DNA of 64,000 nt. Origin: Actinokineospora diospyrosa. Its GTDB lineage: Bacteria; Actinomycetota; Actinomycetes; Mycobacteriales; Pseudonocardiaceae. The DNA lies in NCBI RefSeq assembly GCF_024171925.1, contig NZ_JAMTCO010000004.1:1-64000 (forward strand), in the 5' to 3' direction. A program made the translations under genes and the position numbers. The notes beneath the pieces are model-generated. The model did not search any database and had not been told where the DNA came from. It was given only the letters and a program-made list of their open reading frames with translations. This document shows, piece by piece, positions 1-61,660 of this stretch (position 1 is the stretch's first letter; each line of letters begins with the position of its first letter).

Positions 1-1
1 C

Positions 2-31
2 CCCCACACAAAACAGGTCCACCCCATCGAG
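2..31. repeat. End of a 142-bp palindromic element (partial copy)
   Basis: The window opens inside a copy of the palindromic element that is complete at 36697-36838, 54790-54931 and 61130-61272. Only one 30-base terminal arm is visible, and it matches the arm of the 36.7-kb copy exactly. It is followed by about 69-bp repeats, the same order as at the 61.1-kb copy. The rest of this copy lies before the window. Confidence 0.85.
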
Positions 32-35
32 CATT

Positions 36-440
36 TGGCACCAGCGAGTCCGACTGTCCAGGCGCTGGGAAGGTGGGCTGGGGCGGACCTGACGGAAGGC
101 CAGTTGGCACCGGCGGATCCGACTGTCCAGGTGTTGGGAAGGTGGGCTGGGGCGGACCTGACGGGGCGCAGGTTGGCACCGCAGGGTCCGAGTGTCCAGG
201 TGCTGGGCTGGCAGGGTCGGCGAGGGCGGGCTGGGATGGCACCGGCCGTTCCGGGTGTCCACGGGCTGATCAGGTGGACTGAGGCGGACCTGACGGGGAG
301 CGGGATGGCACCGCTAGGTCCGAGTACCCAGGGGTTGGGGGTGGCACCAGCTGTTCCGAGTGTCCAAGGGCAGGGTTGCGAACCGGGGCCGAACCTGACG
401 GAGGGGCGGAGTGGCGCCGGTGGGGTTCGAGTGCGCCGGG
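36..440. repeat. Degenerate tandem repeat, mostly 69-bp units
   Basis: Units begin with TGGCACC or TGGCGCC at 36, 105, 174, 237, 306, 342 and 412, so most are 69 bases with a 63-base and a truncated 36-base unit. Each unit carries a TCCGAGTGTCCAGGTGCTGG-like core and a GGCGGACCTGACGG-like core. The same units occur at 36.2-36.7, 54.6-54.8 and 61.3-61.66 kb. Because 69 is a multiple of three, a long reading frame stays open with a 23-residue periodic translation. No ribosome binding site or known domain supports it as a gene. Confidence 0.8.
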
Positions 441-36189: not shown

Positions 36190-36690
36190 ACCGACCCGCT
36201 CGCCCGCTCAACCGGGTGACGCCCCCGCGCCCAGTGCACCCCCAGAAGCCGAGGTGCCCCCAGCCCGCCTGGCCAGCCCCTGAACCCTCGGAAGCTGTGG
36301 TGCCCATCCCAGCCCCGCCCGAGCCAGCCCTGCCAACCCAGCACCTGAACCCTCGAACGCGACGGTGCCATCCCAGCCTCCGCCAGGACCGACCCCAAAC
36401 CACCCCGCGCAAGATCATCTGCCGCAAGAGCCCCCGATATACAGCCTAACGAGGAAGCCCGACAGGACCGGGGCAGCGATTGCGGCCTGTGGACAACAGA
36501 ACGCGTTGTGGACAACCAACCGCCACCCACCTAGCCGATCCCTGGACACTCGGAAGCCGCCATCCCGGCCTCCCTCAGGTCCGCCCCACCCCACGGTGCC
36601 CGCCCTGGACACTTGGAAGATCCGGTGCCAGGCCAGCCCGCCCTCGTCGGCCCTGCCAGCCCAGCCCGCGCTCGTCGGTGTCGCTGGTGC
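36190..36690. repeat. Degenerate ~69-bp repeats, reverse orientation
   Basis: Units of the family seen at 36-440, inverted (CCTGGACACTCGGAAGC, CCAGCACCTGAACCCTCG, GGTGCCATCCCAGCCTCCG types). Two blocks, about 36190-36420 and 36530-36690, flank 110 bases of different sequence that include the duplicated GTGGACAAC words at 36488 and 36508. The repeats occupy the region upstream of gltX. Confidence 0.7.
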
Positions 36691-36696
36691 CCAGTG

Positions 36697-36838
36697 CTCG
36701 ATGGGGTGGACCTGTTTTGTGTGGGGGGACAACACCCGTAGCGTTTCTCGCGGCAGGGCCAGTCTTTTCGGCCCCTGCTTTGCGGACCTGCCACGGGTGT
36801 TGTAGGGGCCCCACACAAAACAGGTCCACCCCATCGAG
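36697..36838. repeat. 142-bp palindromic element, complete copy
   Basis: Perfect 30-base terminal inverted repeats (36697-36726 and 36809-36838), then an inner inverted repeat ACAACACCCGT / ACGGGTGTTGT and a third GCAGGGCC / GGCCCCTGC pair around a short loop. The whole element can fold as one long hairpin. Hairpin TTGCCGCCAGGCAA lies to its right and 69-bp repeats to its left, the same composite order as in the other copies. No transposase and no obvious target duplication. Confidence 0.88.
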
Positions 36839-36870
36839 CCGACCGCACTGCCGCGCGACCGGGCCCGATG

Positions 36871-36884
36871 TTGCCGCCAGGCAA
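36871..36884. repeat. Small hairpin unit of the composite repeat
   Basis: TTGCCGCCAGGCAA: a 5-bp stem with a GCCA loop, followed by CGAGGCGG. The same unit occurs at 54963, 55004, 55043, 61042 and 61084. It lies eight bases beyond the end of the MarR gene. Confidence 0.75.
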
Positions 36885-36892
36885 CGAGGCGG

Positions 36893-54635: not shown

Positions 54636-54789
54636 GTTCCGGTGCCAACCCAACCCCCACCAGGTCCGCCTCAGCCCACCTACCCAGCGCCTGGACACTC
54701 GAACCTGCGGTGCCAACTGCCCTTCCGTCAGGTCCGCCTCAGCCCACCTGATCACCCCGCGCTCCTCGGAGTCGCTGGTGCCAGGCCGG
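54636..54789. repeat. Degenerate ~69-bp repeats
   Basis: Two reverse-oriented units (GCGCCTGGACACTCGAACC; GGTGCCAACTGCCCTTCCG) plus a partial one, right after the STAS gene stop. Left part of the third composite repeat locus. Confidence 0.7.
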
Positions 54790-54931
54790 CTCGATGGGGC
54801 GGACTTGTTTTGCGTGGGGGGACAACACCCGTAGCGTTTCCACGCGGCAGGGCCTGCTTTTGGGCCCCTGCTTTGCGGTTCTGCGTCGGGTGTTGTAGGG
54901 GCCCCACGCAAAACAAGTTCGCCCCATCGAG
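54790..54931. repeat. 142-bp palindromic element, complete copy
   Basis: Terminal arms of 30 bases (54790-54819 and 54902-54931) pair with one mismatch. Relative to the 36.7-kb copy, both arms carry matching changes (GTGTG to GCGTG with CACAC to CACGC; CCTG to CTTG with CAGG to CAAG), so pairing is kept. The inner ACAACACCCG pairing is retained too. Confidence 0.88.
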
Positions 54932-54962
54932 CAGCACGCATTGCCGCGGATCGGGCCCGATG

Positions 54963-55056
54963 TTGCCGCCAGGCAACGAGGCGTCCGATCCGGCACGCCG
55001 AGCTCGCCGCCAGGCGACGAGGCGGTGATCCGGACCCCGAGGTTGCCGCCAGGCAA
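54963..55056. repeat. Three covarying hairpin units
   Basis: TTGCCGCCAGGCAA at 54963-54976, TCGCCGCCAGGCGA at 55004-55017 and TTGCCGCCAGGCAA at 55043-55056, 39-41 bases apart, each followed by CGAGGC. The T-A pair in position 2 becomes C-G in the middle unit, a compensatory change. They lie between convergent genes. Confidence 0.82.
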
Positions 55057-55097
55057 CGAGGCCGACGGGCCCGGGTCGCCGAGGTCGCCGCCGACCA

Positions 55098-55673
55098 CTA
55101 AACCGACGCGTGCACCCGCCCCCGCAACGGCGCCAGCGCCTCACTCCACGACACCACCTGATCCAGCAACGTCGTCACCGCGGGCAAGTTGTACTCCCCC
55201 GGCTTGAACACACTGAAGTTCTCGAACTCCGTGATCAACGACAACGCCACCTGCTGCCGCACATCCGCCATCTGCAACTCACCCGCGATCAACCGCAGGT
55301 GCTCCACCGCCCGGGCCCCACCCACCGACCCATAAGACACGAACCCGATCGCCTTGTTGTTCCACTCCGCGTACAGATAGTCGATCGCGTTCTTCAGCAC
55401 CCCCGACGTGCTGTGGTTGTACTCGGGCGTCACCACCACGAACCCGTCGAACGAGGCGATCTTGGCCGCCCACTCCTTGGTGTGCTCGTTCTCGTACTGC
55501 CCCATCGACGGCGGGGTTGGTTCGTCCAGGTGCGGCAGCGGGTAGTCGCGCAGGTCGACGAGTTCGTACTCGGCGTCGGTGCGGCGGGCCGCGATGTCGT
55601 GCACCCACCTGGCCACCTGCTCACCGTTGCGGTTGGGCCGGGTGCTGCCGAGGATGATGCCGATCCGGGTCAC
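55098..55673 (-). CDS. NADPH-dependent FMN reductase family protein
   Basis: A 191-residue flavodoxin-fold quinone/flavin reductase. FMN phosphate loop GSTRPNRNGEQV; PEYNHSTSGVLKNAIDYL for the isoalloxazine site. The GTG at 55673 follows AGGAGG by nine bases. Substrate may be quinones or azo dyes. Ends close to the repeat locus. Confidence 0.9.
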   Translation of the reverse strand: MTRIGIILGSTRPNRNGEQVARWVHDIAARRTDAEYELVDLRDYPLPHLDEPTPPSMGQYENEHTKEWAAKIASFDGFVVVTPEYNHSTSGVLKNAIDYLYAEWNNKAIGFVSYGSVGGARAVEHLRLIAGELQMADVRQQVALSLITEFENFSVFKPGEYNLPAVTTLLDQVVSWSEALAPLRGRVHASV

Positions 55674-55739
55674 CGTGTGCTCCCTCCTGAGACCGTCCAC
55701 TTCGGTCCCAGGCTACGACGGGCACCGCGGCCGGGCGAC

Positions 55740-56972
55740 TCAGCCGAACAGCCGCTCCCCCCAGAAGGAGCCCTCCGCCACGCCGGGCGGGCACGCGAAG
55801 TGACCGGATCCGGTGTGCTCCAGGTACTCCATCATCCGGTCGCGTGAGGACAGTGCCCGCTGCATCGGGACGAACTGCGTGCGCGAGTCCCGGTTGAAGC
55901 ACACGAAGAACAGACCCGCGTCCAAGTGCCCGAACCCGTCCGACCCGTCGGTGAAGTTGTAGCCGCGGCGCAGGATCTTGGCCCCGCCGAGGTTCTCCGC
56001 GGCCAGCCGGACGTGCGAGTCCTCGGCGACCAGCGCCACCCCGCCCGCGCCGCGCACGTTCGGGTCGACCGGGTCGAACTCGTCGCGCTGGCCCAGCGGC
56101 GCGCCGCTGCCCTTGGCCCGGCCGACGATGTCCTCCTGCTCGGCCAGCGAGGTGCGGTCCCAGATCTCGATGTGCATCCGGATCCGCCGCGCCACCAGGT
56201 AGGTCCCGCCGAGCATCCACTCCGGACCGTCGGTCACCCACACGTGCTCGGCCAGCGCCGCCGGGTCCTCCGCTTTGAGGTTGTTCGTGCCGTCCTTGAA
56301 CCCGAACAGGTTGCGCGGGGTGGCCTGGCTGGTCGAGGTCGACGACGTCCGGCCGAACCCCAGCTGCGACCAGCGCACCGCGACCTTGCCGAACCCGATC
56401 CGGGCCAGGTTGCGGATGGCGTGCACCGCCACCTGCGGGTCGTTGGCGCACGCCTGCACGCAGATGTCCCCGCCGCCGCGCCGGGGGTCCAGGTCGTCGC
56501 GGGGGAACCGGGGCAGGTCGATGAGCGCCTCCGGCCTGCGCGCGGCCAGCCCGAAGCGGTCGTCGAACAGCGTCGGGCCGAACCCGATGGTCAGCGTCAG
56601 CGCCGAGGCGGCCAGGTCGAGCGCCTCGCCGGTGTCGGCCGGTGGCGCCTCCGGGTGCCCGCCGACCGCGCCGCCCTCGGTCGCCTCCTGACCGGCGGTC
56701 ATCCGCTCCGCGGCCGCGGTCCACGCCCGCAGCAGCGCCACCAGCTCGGCCCGGTCCTTGGTGGTCACGTCGAAGGCCACGAAGTGCATCCGGTCCTGCG
56801 CCGGGGTCACGATCCCGGCCTGGTGCTGACCGCGGAACGGCACCACCGACACCGGCCCCGCGGGCTGCCCGCCCGGCTCCCCGGTCGCGAGCACGCCTGC
56901 GGCAGCGCCCAGCCCGGCGACCGCGACACCCGCGCCCGCCAGGCCGAACAACCCGCGCCGGGACACACTCAC
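55740..56972 (-). CDS. efeB: Dyp-type peroxidase/deferrochelatase EfeB
   Basis: A 410-residue Tat-exported heme peroxidase. Twin-Arg signal SRRGLFGLAGAG, then the Dyp fold with GFKDGTNN (GxxDG distal site). Works with EfeU and EfeO in ferrous iron uptake and may extract iron from heme. The GTG start overlaps the efeO stop (GTGA). Confidence 0.94.
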   Translation of the reverse strand: MSVSRRGLFGLAGAGVAVAGLGAAAGVLATGEPGGQPAGPVSVVPFRGQHQAGIVTPAQDRMHFVAFDVTTKDRAELVALLRAWTAAAERMTAGQEATEGGAVGGHPEAPPADTGEALDLAASALTLTIGFGPTLFDDRFGLAARRPEALIDLPRFPRDDLDPRRGGGDICVQACANDPQVAVHAIRNLARIGFGKVAVRWSQLGFGRTSSTSTSQATPRNLFGFKDGTNNLKAEDPAALAEHVWVTDGPEWMLGGTYLVARRIRMHIEIWDRTSLAEQEDIVGRAKGSGAPLGQRDEFDPVDPNVRGAGGVALVAEDSHVRLAAENLGGAKILRRGYNFTDGSDGFGHLDAGLFFVCFNRDSRTQFVPMQRALSSRDRMMEYLEHTGSGHFACPPGVAEGSFWGERLFG

Positions 56973-58117
56973 TTCTGCGCCACGACCTCGGCGACCTTGC
57001 TGATCGGCTCACCGAGGGCGTCCACCGCCTCGGCGAACGCCTTGACCTCGGCCTCGGTCAGGTCGGTGTAGAGCTTGTAGCCCTCGCCGGTGTGCTGCTT
57101 GTCCAGCAGGTCGGTGACCACCTTGAACCGCTGCTCCAGCGTCTTGGCCAGCTCCGGGTCGCGCTCGTTGACGACCTCGCGCAGCGCGTTCACCGCGGCC
57201 GCCGAGCCCTCCACGTTCGCCCGGAAGTCCCACAGGTCGGTGTGCGAGAAGATGTCCTCCTCGCCGGTGATCTTGCCGGTGGCGACCTCGTCGAGCAGCT
57301 CCTTCGCGCCGTTGGCCAGCTGCAGCGGGGTCAGCTCCACCGCCTTGGCCTTGGTCGCGATCTCGTTGACGTCGGTGGCCAGCCGCTCGGCGATGGCGCC
57401 GCTGTCGGCCTGCAGGCCGCTGACCCACAGGTCCTTCTCCAGCCGGTGGAACCCGGTGAACTCCTGCCCCGGCTCCAGGTCGGCCTCGCGCGCGTCGATG
57501 CGCGGGTCCAGGTCGCCGAAGCTCTCCGCCACCGGCTCGATGCGCTCCCAGTAGGTCCGCGCGACCGGGAACAGCGCCTTGGCCTCGTCGACCTTGCCCG
57601 CCTTCACCGCGGCCACGAACTCGCCTGTCTTGGCCACCAGCGGCTCGACCTGGGAGGTGACGTAGGTCTTGTAGCTCCTGGTCGCTTCGGCCAGCTTGGT
57701 GTTGGTGTCGACCTGCCTGGTCGCCGAGCCCTTCACGGTGAACCCGGCGCGGATGCCGTCACCGGTCATCCCCGGCCTGCACGAGGTCTGGTACTTGCCG
57801 CCGTCGGGGACCTCGACGATCAACCGCCTGGTCAGCCCGGGGGTGATGTTCTCGACCTCACCCATGATCCGGTCGCCCTCGCCGTAGAGGTAGAACTCGG
57901 TGACCCGGGTGCCCTTGTTGCTGACCTCGAAGGTGATCGTGCCCGCGTCGGCCTCCGCGCGGGTCAGCCCGCACGCGTCGTCCTTGGCCTCGACCGCGAT
58001 CGGGCCGCCCGCCTGGGCGCCGGTGCCACCGCCGGTGTCGCCGCCGGAGCCGCAGGCGGTCAGGGGGAGCAGGACGGCCAGGCCGGTCAGGCAGACGCCC
58101 AGGTCCTTGAGTCTCAC
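56969..58117 (-). CDS. efeO: Iron-uptake lipoprotein EfeO
   Basis: A 382-residue periplasmic-type lipoprotein (lipobox PLTAC, Cys22). An N-terminal cupredoxin-like domain (about 40-135) is followed by an M75-type helical domain with the HxxE motif GFHRLEKDLW. Binds iron and passes it to EfeU. The GTG overlaps the efeU stop (GTGA). Confidence 0.93.
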   Translation of the reverse strand: MRLKDLGVCLTGLAVLLPLTACGSGGDTGGGTGAQAGGPIAVEAKDDACGLTRAEADAGTITFEVSNKGTRVTEFYLYGEGDRIMGEVENITPGLTRRLIVEVPDGGKYQTSCRPGMTGDGIRAGFTVKGSATRQVDTNTKLAEATRSYKTYVTSQVEPLVAKTGEFVAAVKAGKVDEAKALFPVARTYWERIEPVAESFGDLDPRIDAREADLEPGQEFTGFHRLEKDLWVSGLQADSGAIAERLATDVNEIATKAKAVELTPLQLANGAKELLDEVATGKITGEEDIFSHTDLWDFRANVEGSAAAVNALREVVNERDPELAKTLEQRFKVVTDLLDKQHTGEGYKLYTDLTEAEVKAFAEAVDALGEPISKVAEVVAQK

Positions 58118-58959
58118 GGGGTGGCTCCTTGCGCGGGGACGGGGCCAGCGGCTTTGCGCGCGGGCCAGAGGAAGACGGTGAGGGTGATCGCCACGTAGGC
58201 GACCCAGGCGACGGCCTGCACCACGCTGGTGCGCGCCGAGTAGTTGAAGATCCCCTTGAGCAGCGCGCCGTACCAGGAGTCCTCGGGCACCGGTCCGGAC
58301 AGGTCGAACGCGAGGGTGTTCAGGCCGGGCAGCACCCCGGCCTCCTGCAGGTCGTGCAGCCCGTAGCCGAGCACCCCGGCGGCCACGAAGACCAGCAGCA
58401 CGCCGGTGTAGGTGAAGAAGCGGCTCAGGTTGATCCGCAGCGCGCCCCGGTAGAGCGCCCAGCCGAGCAGGACCGCGAGGGCGATCCCGATCAGGAAGCC
58501 GACCAGCGGCCCGCTGTTGGTGCCCGCGGACTGGGTGGTGGCGTAGAAGAAGACGGCCGTCTCCAGCCCCTCCCGGCCGACCGAGAGGAAGGCGAGGCCG
58601 ACGATCGCGAGTGGACCGATGGCCAGCGCGTCGGAGAGCCGCCCGCGCAGTTCCCCGCTGATCTTGCGGGCCGCGCCGCGCATCCAGAACACCATCCCGG
58701 TGACGAACGCGACGGCGACCAGCGACATCACGCCGCCGAAGGTCTCCTGCGCCTGGAAGTCCAGCGTGCTGCTGGTGAAGGTGATCAGCGCGCCGACCGC
58801 GACCGAGAGCACCACCGCGACGCCGACGCCGAGCCACACCCAGCGGATCGCCGGGCGCCGGTCGGACTTGACCAGGTAGGCCAGCAGGATGCTCACCACC
58901 AGGGTGGCCTCCAGGCCCTCGCGCAGCCCGACCAGCGCGCTGGCGAACACGTACTCCAC
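58114..58959 (-). CDS. efeU: Ferrous iron permease EfeU
   Basis: A 281-residue membrane permease of the Ftr1 type with seven hydrophobic segments. Both REGLE iron-binding motifs are present (residues 13-17 and 129-133). The GTG at 58959 has GGAGG five bases upstream; a GTG at 58965 overlaps that site. First gene of efeUOB, behind two iron boxes. Confidence 0.94.
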   Translation of the reverse strand: MEYVFASALVGLREGLEATLVVSILLAYLVKSDRRPAIRWVWLGVGVAVVLSVAVGALITFTSSTLDFQAQETFGGVMSLVAVAFVTGMVFWMRGAARKISGELRGRLSDALAIGPLAIVGLAFLSVGREGLETAVFFYATTQSAGTNSGPLVGFLIGIALAVLLGWALYRGALRINLSRFFTYTGVLLVFVAAGVLGYGLHDLQEAGVLPGLNTLAFDLSGPVPEDSWYGALLKGIFNYSARTSVVQAVAWVAYVAITLTVFLWPARKAAGPVPAQGATP

Positions 58960-58976
58960 GGTCACCTCCCGGCCGG

Positions 58977-58995
58977 TTCGGTAAGCCTTACCTGG
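58977..58995. promoter_or_regulatory. DtxR/IdeR-type iron box 1
   Basis: A 19-bp site with core GGTAAGCCTTACC, a close match to the DtxR/IdeR consensus. It lies 18 bases before the efeU start. Confidence 0.85.
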
Positions 58996-59001
58996 TCGAA
59001 C

Positions 59002-59020
59002 CTAGGTAAGCCTTACTTGG
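59002..59020. promoter_or_regulatory. DtxR/IdeR-type iron box 2
   Basis: A 19-bp site with core AGGTAAGCCTTACTT, 25 bases centre to centre from box 1. Two boxes imply tight iron-dependent repression of efeUOB. Confidence 0.85.
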
Positions 59021-59160
59021 CCTGTCCAGTGCGACAAGCGCGACACCACGCCGCCAACCAGGGGAAATGTCCGGATCCTCCTGCTAGACACGCTTGTAGA
59101 GGCTCGCCGGGACATAACAAATCGGTAGCCTGCCCAGGAGGGAACCCGGGGAGGGGTGCG

Positions 59161-60846
59161 GTGCGCGAACTGCAGGTCCACGATCCGCGACGGGTCGGTG
59201 ACTACGCGCTGCTCGGCAGGCTCGGCCGGGGCGCGATGGGCACGGTCTACCTGGGGCGCTCCCCGGGCGGGCGCTACGTCGCGGTCAAGGTCGCCAGGGG
59301 CGGGTTGGCCGAGGACCCGGACTTCCGGCACCGGTTCCGCCTGGAGATCGAGATGGCCCGCGCGGTCGGCGGCTTCTGGACCGCCGCCGTGGTCGGCGCC
59401 GACCCGGACGCCGACCGGCCCTGGCTGGCCACCGAGTACGTGCCGGGTCCGACGCTGACCGAGGCCGTGCGCTCCGGTGGTCCGCTGCCCGAGCCCGCGC
59501 TGCGCGCACTGCTGGCCGGGCTCGCCGAGGCACTCGCGGCCATCCACGCTGCCGGTCTGGTGCACCGCGACCTCAAGCCGTCGAACGTGCTGCTGGCGGA
59601 GGACGGGCCGAGGGTCATCGACTTCGGTATCGCGAAGGCGGTGCGCACTACCGCGTTGACCGCGACCGGGGTGCTGTTCGGGACTCCTGGCTACCTATCG
59701 CCAGAACAGATCTCCGGTGGCGAGGTAGGGCCGCCTAGCGATGTGTTCGCTCTTGGCGCGGTCATGGTCTATGCCGCTACGGGGTCTGGGGCCTTTGGGG
59801 ATGGTGAGGTTGCGGCACTGCTCTATAGGGCGGTGCACACGGTGCCGGACTTGGTCGGGGTGCCTAGTGAGCTGCGGCCGGTGGTGTCCCGGTGCCTGAA
59901 CCCACGTGCTGAGGCGCGACCGACTCCGGCGGACCTGTTGGCGGAGGTGGGAGAGGCACCGACCGGCCACTGGTTACCGGCGGTGGTGCGGACGCTGGTG
60001 GAACAGCACCAAACCGAGTTCCTCAAGCCGGTGACCCCGCGCACGCCAACCCTGGTGGAGCACCCGGCCCCGCCCGCAGCCCGACCCCGCAGCGCTTCAC
60101 CGCCTACCGCTCAGCCTGCTGCCGCGCGCTCTACTGTCGCCCAGTCTCCCGCTGCGCACCCGCCTGCTGCTCAGCCTCCTGTTGGGCGCCCTTCGGTCAT
60201 CCCGCCTTCCGCTCCCCAGTCTGCTGCCGCGGGGGCTCCTGCCGTCCTGCCGCCCGTTCCCCGGTCTGCGGTCGGCCGGTCGCCTTCCCCCGACAAAGCC
60301 CCTGCGTCTACCCGCCGCGCAGCCTCCCCCACGGACTCCCTGCGATTGCGCACCACCCGAACCGCGCCCCTGCTCTGGACCTTGACCACAGGTGCCTGCA
60401 CGATCCTGGCTCTGGCCGCTGCCGCCAAGAGCGCCCACTACGGCGTGGAAGCCTTAGCCGCCGCTATGGGCGCACTCGCGGTCCTACTGGGCCTCTCAAC
60501 AATCCGGGCCCTGTTCCGAACCCTCAAGGCCCGCCCCCGCACCGTGGTCATCGCCGACATAGGCCTCTGGATCTCCTCCACCGACGGCGAACGCCTCATC
60601 CCCTGGGCCGAGATCTCCCGAGTCCAAGTACTCACCGACCGCCGCAAACCCTGGCTGATCCTCTGGCTAAAGGACCCAGCCACCGCCGACGCCGCCCTGG
60701 GCAAACGCCACTCCCGCCGCCACGGGGGTTTCCGCCTCTACCCCATCTCCCACCACCACCCCAAACCCCGCCAATCCCGAGACGTGTTGGAACTTCGTTC
60801 CTCTCTTCAACAACACGCGGGCAGTGCCTACGATCCAACTCCGTGA
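59161..60846 (+). CDS. Membrane Ser/Thr protein kinase (PknB type)
   Basis: A 561-residue kinase. Gly loop GRLGRGAMGTVYLG, Lys43 (VAVKVARG), catalytic loop VHRDLKPSN (Asp137) and DFG at 154. After the kinase domain (about 1-265) comes a long Pro/Ala/Ser linker (about 290-395), two close membrane segments (about 402-445) and a C-terminal PH-like beta domain (VIADIGLWISSTDGERLIPW). No PASTA repeats. The GTG at 59161 follows GGGGAGGGG. Confidence 0.92.
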   Translation: MRELQVHDPRRVGDYALLGRLGRGAMGTVYLGRSPGGRYVAVKVARGGLAEDPDFRHRFRLEIEMARAVGGFWTAAVVGADPDADRPWLATEYVPGPTLTEAVRSGGPLPEPALRALLAGLAEALAAIHAAGLVHRDLKPSNVLLAEDGPRVIDFGIAKAVRTTALTATGVLFGTPGYLSPEQISGGEVGPPSDVFALGAVMVYAATGSGAFGDGEVAALLYRAVHTVPDLVGVPSELRPVVSRCLNPRAEARPTPADLLAEVGEAPTGHWLPAVVRTLVEQHQTEFLKPVTPRTPTLVEHPAPPAARPRSASPPTAQPAAARSTVAQSPAAHPPAAQPPVGRPSVIPPSAPQSAAAGAPAVLPPVPRSAVGRSPSPDKAPASTRRAASPTDSLRLRTTRTAPLLWTLTTGACTILALAAAAKSAHYGVEALAAAMGALAVLLGLSTIRALFRTLKARPRTVVIADIGLWISSTDGERLIPWAEISRVQVLTDRRKPWLILWLKDPATADAALGKRHSRRHGGFRLYPISHHHPKPRQSRDVLELRSSLQQHAGSAYDPTP

Positions 60847-61041
60847 GCTAGCGTCCTTGGCTCGGCTGCGGCCTGATGCTGTTGTCCACAGGGCGTTGGT
60901 TGCTGCTCCCGGGTTGTCGGTGTGCGTCGGTAAGCTGTGTATTTGGGGGCTTTCGATCAGGTTGATCTTGGCGTGGGCCGTGGTTGGGAGTGCGGGGCAA
61001 GGGATTCGGGCCTCCGCCTTCGGCTGCGGTGGTCGGCCTCG

Positions 61042-61097
61042 TCGCCTGGCGGCGAGCTCGGCGACCCGGGATCGGACGCCTCGTTGCCTGGCGGCAA
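61042..61097. repeat. Two covarying hairpin units
   Basis: TCGCCTGGCGGCGA (61042-61055) and TTGCCTGGCGGCAA (61084-61097), the reverse complements of the units at 54963-55056, 42 bases apart. Left part of the fourth composite locus, in inverse orientation to the loci at 36.7 and 54.8 kb. Confidence 0.8.
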
Positions 61098-61129
61098 CAT
61101 CGGGCCCGATCCGCGACTTAACTGCGAAG

Positions 61130-61272
61130 CTCGATGGGGCGAACTTGTTTTGCGTGGGGCCCCTACAACACCCGTGGCAGAACCGCAAAGCAGGGGCCCA
61201 AAAGCAGGCCCTGCCGCGTGAACAACGCTACGGGTGTCGTCCCCCCACGCAAAACAAGTCCGCCCCATCGAG
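61130..61272. repeat. 143-bp palindromic element, complete copy, inverted
   Basis: Same element as at 54790-54931 on the opposite strand, with one extra base. 30-base terminal arms (61130-61159 and 61243-61272) with one mismatch. The inner ACAACACCCG arm is kept. Followed by 69-bp repeats. Confidence 0.88.
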
Positions 61273-61278
61273 CCGGCC

Positions 61279-61660
61279 TGGCACCAGCGACTCCGACTGT
61301 CCAGGCGCTGGGTAGGTGGGCTGGGGCGGACCTGGCGGGAGCTGAGGTGGCGCCGCTGGATCCGAGGGTCCACGGGCTGAGCAGGTGGGCTGAGGCGGAC
61401 CTGACGGGGGGCGAGCTGGCACCGCTGAGTCCGAGTGTCCAGGTGCTGCGTGGGTGGGTTGGGGCGCACCTGACGGGGGGCAAGGTTGGCACCGACGGGT
61501 CCGAGTGTCCAGGTGCTGGGTAGGTGGGCTGGGGCGCACCTGACGGGAGCCGGGCTGGCAGTGGGACTTGCGAGTGTCCAGGGGGGCTAGGTTTGTGGGT
61601 TGGGGCCAGTCCTGACGGAGGGCGGGATGGCACCAGCGGGGTTCGAGTGTCCGGTGGTCG
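61279..61660. repeat. Tandem ~69-bp repeats
   Basis: Units start at 61279, 61348, 61417, 61487, 61556 and 61628 (69, 69, 70, 69, 72 bases). The first begins like the first unit at 36-104 (TGGCACCAGCGA, CCGACTGTCCAGGCGCTGGG), so the junction with the palindromic element is conserved. Confidence 0.85.

Follow-up and report, generated by a model that had tools for sequence, protein, structure and literature searches.

A multi-copy hairpin of Actinokineospora with homologous hairpins around DUF222 genes in related genera

The DNA analyzed here (the window) comprises bases 1-64000 of contig C4 of the source genome, G000, an 8.11-Mb draft in 29 contigs. It contains three complete copies of a 142-143 bp hairpin, designated P, and one partial arm, located where an earlier sequence-only reading of the window had placed them. 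The first complete copy (36697..36838, + strand, 142 bp) has co-directional genes on both sides. The other two (54790..54931, + strand, and 61130..61272, − strand) lie between convergent genes, as the same reading had proposed and as gene context confirmed; copy 54790 has an FMN-reductase gene facing it, and a kinase gene and a spermine-synthase-like gene enclose copy 61130. The partial copy, truncated by the contig start, is an outer arm at 1..31 (arm 2-31) that was assigned to the − strand from its C run and from the array to its right. P arms are 30 bp long, and each window copy with its flanks folds as a single hairpin (−121.8 to −133.4 kcal/mol). A search of the window at Rfam gathering scores gave no matches, indicating that P is not a known Rfam RNA family. 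P arms also occur no more than 300 bases from the start of nine G000 contigs (C1, C2, C4, C5, C6, C7, C11, C12, and C16), from which the draft assembly seems to break at P hairpins.

Each copy is accompanied by other repeats. Arrays of a 69-bp unit are found at 35..313 (− strand), belonging to the partial copy, and at 61292..61656 (− strand, 5.2 units), adjoining copy 61130. Repeats of the same type, with limits set by eye, lie left of copy 54790 (54640..54788, + strand) and left of copy 36697 (36204..36695, + strand), the latter interrupted by a second kind of module. This module, termed M (∼92 bp), was absent from the earlier reading; its limits in the window, also set by eye, are 60880..60974 (− strand, with the DnaA-box word TTGTCCACA) and, left of copy 36697, 36407..36500 (+ strand, with a DnaA-box word). 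Small hairpins, again delimited by eye, are located right of copy 54790 (54945..55092, + strand), right of copy 36697 (a single hairpin at 36859..36892, + strand), and adjoining copy 61130 (61008..61115, − strand). The small right-flank hairpins, such as those at 54945-55092, have GAA, GCA, or GCCA loops on interchangeable stems, and we presume that these loops resemble those of very stable DNA minihairpins.

A search of the whole genome and of its relatives, as suggested by the sequence-only reading, found at least 174 copies in G000 and further copies across the genus, which excludes an element that occurs only in the window. A pattern for the arm matched 195 times in G000 and a once-per-copy pattern 174 times, compared to zero matches for the reversed-pattern and once-per-copy controls; the P family is not a chance pattern. 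The once-per-copy pattern was matched in 10 of 16 genus genomes (elsewhere than G000, 51 matches each in G006 and G014, 29 in G012, 23 in G005, 17 in G002, 13 in G003, 11 in G010, and 1 each in G001 and G008), with none in the remaining six. A second pattern, run against 200 genomes, gave 25 matches in G009 and 17 in G001; the 190 of these genomes that belong to other genera had none. G004 was matched by R2, a covariance model of P, and similarity and pattern searches found no P in G007, G011, G013, and G015. At least 55 named stretches carry the P pattern, all from Actinokineospora among the matches listed. The G006 hairpins are the most similar to those of G000 (90%). With its terminal inverted repeats, short length, lack of coding capacity, and many copies, P has the form of a MITE. 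For the analyses below, 115 copies were extracted from part of the G000 DNA (against 174 pattern matches genome-wide), 112 of them full. At one G006 locus (L224:15168-16124), four P copies occupy about 1 kb, three co-oriented and the last reversed.

The fixed internal order that the sequence-only reading had noticed holds outside the window as well, with the 69-bp unit on the same side and in the same orientation at most of the copies examined. The unit lies left of P in the same orientation in 92 of 112 full G000 copies, 12-14 bp away in 90 of these 92, and the flanks of all 112 contain 361 unit matches, of which 349 are on the left and co-oriented with P, 8 on the left with the opposite orientation, and 4 on the right. 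M gave 150 matches around these copies, of which 117 were to the right and 27 to the left in the same orientation, 4 were left and reversed, and 2 were far away. The usual composite is ordered as 69-bp array, P, small hairpins, and M, and spans about 0.4-1.2 kb. When the same profiles were applied to 40 G006 loci, all 19 unit matches lay left of P in the same orientation, and the 17 M matches comprised 13 on the right and 1 on the left in the same orientation and 3 that were far and reversed. At 62 loci of other congeners the unit profile had no matches and the M profile had 11, which indicates that the 69-bp unit and M are clade-specific. Four array-less G000 copies (C3:64459, C2:97356, C9:82405, and C4:81007) have other flanks in common, with several CATCGAG words.

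The word TTGTCCACA, contained in M, is given in PMC4285127 as the high-affinity DnaA box for Mycobacterium tuberculosis and Streptomyces coelicolor. Non-coding DNA near P (119 kb) contains it 195 times, compared to 12 times in other non-coding DNA (83 kb) and 3 times in coding DNA (528 kb); in the flanks of the 112 copies, where overlapping flanks may count one box twice, 212 boxes point one way and 12 the other. In G006, 19 boxes are near P and 1 is far. Furthermore, 34 of 51 G006 copies are co-oriented with replication (p 0.024, with the terminus assumed to lie opposite dnaA). These features would be expected if the composite were a DnaA-binding (titration) or other replication site and P a single-strand signal on the lagging-strand template. 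We nevertheless consider this improbable, because the boxes sit outside P itself, 27 of 112 G000 copies have none within 1.2 kb, none was found near P in 23 A. iranica loci and only 2 in 7 bangkokensis loci, and the replication bias arises from one chromosome arm (18 to 4, versus 16 to 13 in the other). The sequence-only reading had also suggested a nucleoid or chromosome-organization site, which in view of the DnaA boxes of the companion module is a conceivable role. The composite offers a case of repeat-borne dispersal of DnaA boxes. We also considered by eye, and dropped, a promoter role for M and for the inner motif of the hairpin. Among the listed G000 P places none is near that genome's dnaA, and three G006 copies (G006:C1:1381846-1382570) lie ∼4 kb from a dnaA match.

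Among the 112 G000 copies with both neighbors called, 74 lie between convergent, 32 between co-directional, and 6 between divergent genes, 3 further copies lack a called neighbor, and none is inside a called gene; these counts are approximate, as the simple home-made codon-based gene caller misses genes such as the kinase gene beside copy 61130. For genes longer than 300 bp in the same stretches, convergent gaps make up 72 of the 107 that contain P and 34 of the 348 that do not, and the median convergent gap is 1043 bp with P versus 32 bp without, a comparison in which the choice of stretches around P depresses the figure for P-less gaps. A function of P as an intrinsic terminator was rejected, since no T run follows it (by eye) and co-directional gaps hold both orientations (17 and 15). 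The convergent-gap bias is consistent with P being a resident structured RNA or single-strand signal that has a cellular role between convergent genes and is not mainly mobile. The about equal use of the two orientations in co-directional gaps argues against such a role, as does locus C4_96150, where the terminator-like hairpins of both genes, recognized by eye, lie outside the composite. We regard the resident-signal reading as unlikely overall, and further evidence on both of its sides is given below.

The hairpin is maintained while its sequence changes. Across 33 genus sequences, 98.0% of 977 outer-stem cells are paired, both sides have changed at 19 of 30 pairs, and the covariation is 0.434 versus 0.137 in shuffles, with none of 500 shuffles reaching any of five measures. 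The clamp and bulge (GGGG and AGGGGCCCC) are nearly invariant across the genus. We then compared the two strands by pairing, along the 30-bp arms, the bases that lie equally far from the two ends, a procedure that involves no structure prediction. The ratio of G.T to A.C cells was 156:4 in G000 (109 copies, 3 dropped) and 86:0 in G006 (57 copies, 1 dropped). It was 23:2 in globicatena and 23:0 in terrae (8 copies each, together 46:2 in 16 copies), 7:1 in bangkokensis (8 copies), 5:0 in auranticolor (2 copies, 1 dropped), 2:0 in pegani (1 copy), and 0:0 in NBRC 105648 (3 copies). A. iranica yielded 7:4 (18 copies, 3 dropped), with G.T at 2 positions and A.C at 4. Positions 13, 24, and 26 account for most of the cells; because related copies have inherited them in common, the cells are not independent. 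Counts based on predicted structures were 353:12 in G000 (239:9 without a doubtful 3-bp helix) and 163:0 in G006, values biased toward G.T by the use of forward-strand structures; prediction on the reverse strand of the G000 alignment gave only 43:26 in forward terms. The forward fold was energetically lower in 107 of 112 G000 copies, in 58 of 58 G006 copies, and, across seven named species, in 44 of 52 copies, the last comparison omitting four listed rows that had no end or were too long.

A C>T strand bias was rejected as the source of the G.T cells: C>T changes are not enriched on the G.T-favored strand of the unpaired repeats, being approximately equal to G>A per consensus column in the 69-bp unit and lower than G>A in M. 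Selection for one folded strand, either RNA or single-stranded DNA, is well supported in the source clade, and this asymmetry, along with the covariation of the outer stem, also favors the resident-signal reading. The structured RNA that the sequence-only reading had offered is upheld insofar as pairing is kept and one strand is favored in this clade, while RNA and single-stranded DNA are indistinguishable on these data. Outside the genus the forward-strand preference is absent: of 18 hairpins examined in other genera, 11 had a forward fold of higher energy than the reverse one, 6 had a lower one, and in 1 the two were equal, and among 12 hairpins that flank DUF222 genes (see below) the forward fold was lower in 5 and the reverse in 7. 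A repeat whose stems turn over with pairing kept, in dozens to hundreds of copies per genome, provides natural replicates.

Positions and sequences of P follow different courses. Of the 40 G006 P loci, which were fetched because they bear P, 11 two-sided gaps and 2 one-sided gaps match P-bearing G000 gaps, other one-sided matches being left uncounted. Orientation at these 13 shared gaps, judged by hand, was the same in 10, opposite in 1, and unclear in 2; a further shared gap with matching orientation brings agreement to 11 of 12 clear cases (p 0.006), which again favors a resident signal. In 15 shared-position comparisons, the G000 counterpart ranked 4th to 109th of 112 in similarity (middle 67th), and three fell within the first 13 ranks. 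The nearest-neighbor hairpin was within the same genome for 57 of 58 and 111 of 112 copies. Same-genome nearest neighbors and low counterpart ranks fit homogenization or repeated replacement. Selfish palindromes kept perfect through template switching or arm-to-arm correction, with no selection on folding, would likewise yield perfect arms and such within-genome sameness, and the weak asymmetry in A. iranica and its absence outside the genus fit this explanation too. It predicts neither the 156:4 and 86:0 ratios of G000 and G006 nor the conserved unpaired parts, however, and we judge it a little less probable even than the replication-site reading.

Orthologous sites without P were also found. 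In G006 stretches chosen because G000 has P there and G006 few, five of six two-sided gaps lack P; the matched protein parts on either side of them are 6, 55, 93, 340, and 727 bp apart. The A. globicatena gaps corresponding to C2_33410 and C9_82405 are also empty (17 and 217 bp). The missing copies at orthologous gaps, together with the four genomes in which no P was found (G007, G011, G013, and G015), speak against a resident signal. The proposal of a MITE-like element in the sequence-only reading gains from the dispersed copies, the empty orthologous sites, and the homologous hairpins that flank DUF222 genes, but no target-site duplication was recognized when flanks were inspected by eye. 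Relative to locus L196 of G006, gene order around the two P copies at window positions 54790-61272 is rearranged, and the breakpoints fall at or close to P. Inside the L196 pair of G006 lie IS3-type-transposase-like frames (by eye), which we took as a separate insertion.

A probable relationship of P to a protein-coding element emerged from other genera. Of 110 family genomes, 18 had matches to model R2, which was built from Actinokineospora only and used at E up to 0.01 per genome; 4 of the 18 were Actinokineospora, and the remaining 14 were spread over 8 further genera. Some of the matches reached only E 1e-3 to 1e-5, and palindromic pairing as such contributed to the score. In G095, many R2 matches form inverted pairs ∼1.5 kb apart, and all 10 fetched loci consist of an inverted hairpin pair (two arms ∼98% alike) around a 415-aa frame; nine of the encoded proteins are 93-96% identical to the first. 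This protein is DUF222 by Pfam (E 3e-21) and, as we read it, has an HNH-like end; NCBIfam and PDB sequence searches with it returned nothing. G145 has the same hairpin-gene-hairpin layout with a 66%-identical protein. DUF222 protein was detected in 60 of 200 family genomes and 21 of 46 genera at E 1e-25. Thirty DUF222 loci, among them that of the query itself, were compared. Both R2 and R3, a further model, found hairpins at 8 of them, 4 two-sided, in three genera (5 of 6 loci in g20, 1 in g57, and 2 in g50), and the other 22 showed no hairpin. All 12 of the DUF222-flanking hairpins point outward. The L304 hairpin, which was outside the R3 training set, scored 53.7 bits, and R3 applied to 359 kb of G006 identified only places that the P profile also finds. 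An inner motif, YAARCY, is present in 18 of 32 hairpins versus 1.1 in shuffles, and in 16 of 28 outside the genus; it was chosen after looking, and 4 of the 32 hairpins are from Actinokineospora. A loose pattern for the bulge fits 30 of 32, but it was drawn up after inspection and had no control.

Within Actinokineospora the situation differs. DUF222 is absent from 14 of 16 genomes, G000 included, so that P is gene-less there and, in G000, at most a relative of the hairpin-DUF222 gene-hairpin form. G003, the one P-bearing genome with DUF222, has no hairpin beside that gene. Homologous hairpins flank DUF222 genes in three other genera, and none was seen to do so in Actinokineospora. A DUF222 gene of the genus itself was rejected as the present mobilizer, given its occurrence in 2 of 16 genomes without hairpins. 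Close inverted P pairs in G000 and G006 point outward in 10 cases and inward in 1, with 8 more close pairs co-oriented, and bangkokensis pairs also point outward, like the DUF222 hairpins; the close pairs among the matches listed for A. sp. NBRC 105648, A. auranticolor, G001, and G003 are mainly inward, which speaks against a simple derivation.

The simplest account of these observations is that P and the ends of DUF222 elements share ancestry. With roughly even confidence, we favor the reading of P as a gene-less end hairpin from a family of DUF222-type mobile elements, amplified in Actinokineospora without the gene. The complete element, in other genera of the same bacterial family, would consist of a DUF222 gene with an HNH-like end between inverted hairpins; in Actinokineospora, P would have multiplied without this gene, usually in the directional composite and mostly in convergent gaps. 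Several observations weigh against this reading: the rarity of DUF222 in Actinokineospora, the 22 DUF222 loci lacking hairpins, the concentration of the strand asymmetry at three positions and its absence beyond the genus, the inward pairs of some congeners, and the lack of any recognized target-site duplication. As for the mobilizer, the mechanism, and the present function of P, we infer that a DUF222/HNH-type protein may have helped it to spread by reading one strand in folded form, as single-stranded DNA or as RNA, and that gene conversion or repeated replacement may homogenize the copies within a species. A stronger proposal, which we offer tentatively and think rather doubtful, is a new class of mobile element in which a DUF222/HNH-type nuclease would read folded single-strand ends (DNA or RNA) with a conserved bulge, the gene-less ends having become a genus-wide repeat system in Actinokineospora with concerted evolution in each species. 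In its boldest form, the folded strand would be the RNA partner of the DUF222/HNH-type nuclease. DUF222 ('13E12') proteins form a multi-copy actinobacterial family of unknown function, and the link, if it holds, would give them a testable role as movers of hairpin-ended DNA.

Searches of open-licence PMC literature found no description of these hairpins, and several known systems offer comparisons. MITEs and the enterobacterial ERIC and RU sequences are short gene-less palindromes with many intergenic copies and no transposase of their own. P shares these properties, but its stems diverge between species yet still pair, it has fixed companion modules, and homologous hairpins surround DUF222 genes. 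BOX of pneumococcus and BIME of Escherichia coli are composites of ordered modules in intergenic DNA, as is the P composite, which differs in its 142-bp hairpin with 30-bp outer arms, its one-sided 69-bp arrays, and its DnaA-box module. Integron attC sites conserve a palindromic shape with divergent stems and bulged bases; P does the same, although it is dispersed and was not seen in cassette arrays. REP/RAYT systems (PMC3733652) are likewise multi-copy extragenic palindromes. A REP/RAYT-type element moved by a Y1 (IS200/IS605-like) transposase would explain the dispersal of such palindromes and could involve the reading of a folded strand; we consider it very unlikely for P, which is much longer and whose genomes lack the enzyme: among the 16 genus genomes, Y1_Tnp was detected in two, G015 and G007, in neither of which P was found, and it was not detected in G000 or G006, which argues against a Y1 transposase as present mobilizer. 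The sequence-only reading had allowed that the arms could be part of a known insertion sequence, and for the Y1 (IS200/IS605) type, the one tested, they were not. The REP13E12/DUF222-HNH repeats of Mycobacterium feature a multi-copy DUF222 gene (PMC10589994); as distinct from REP13E12 as described there, the loci compared here, from outside Mycobacterium, have inverted hairpins of ∼115-165 bp at 8 of 30 DUF222 genes.
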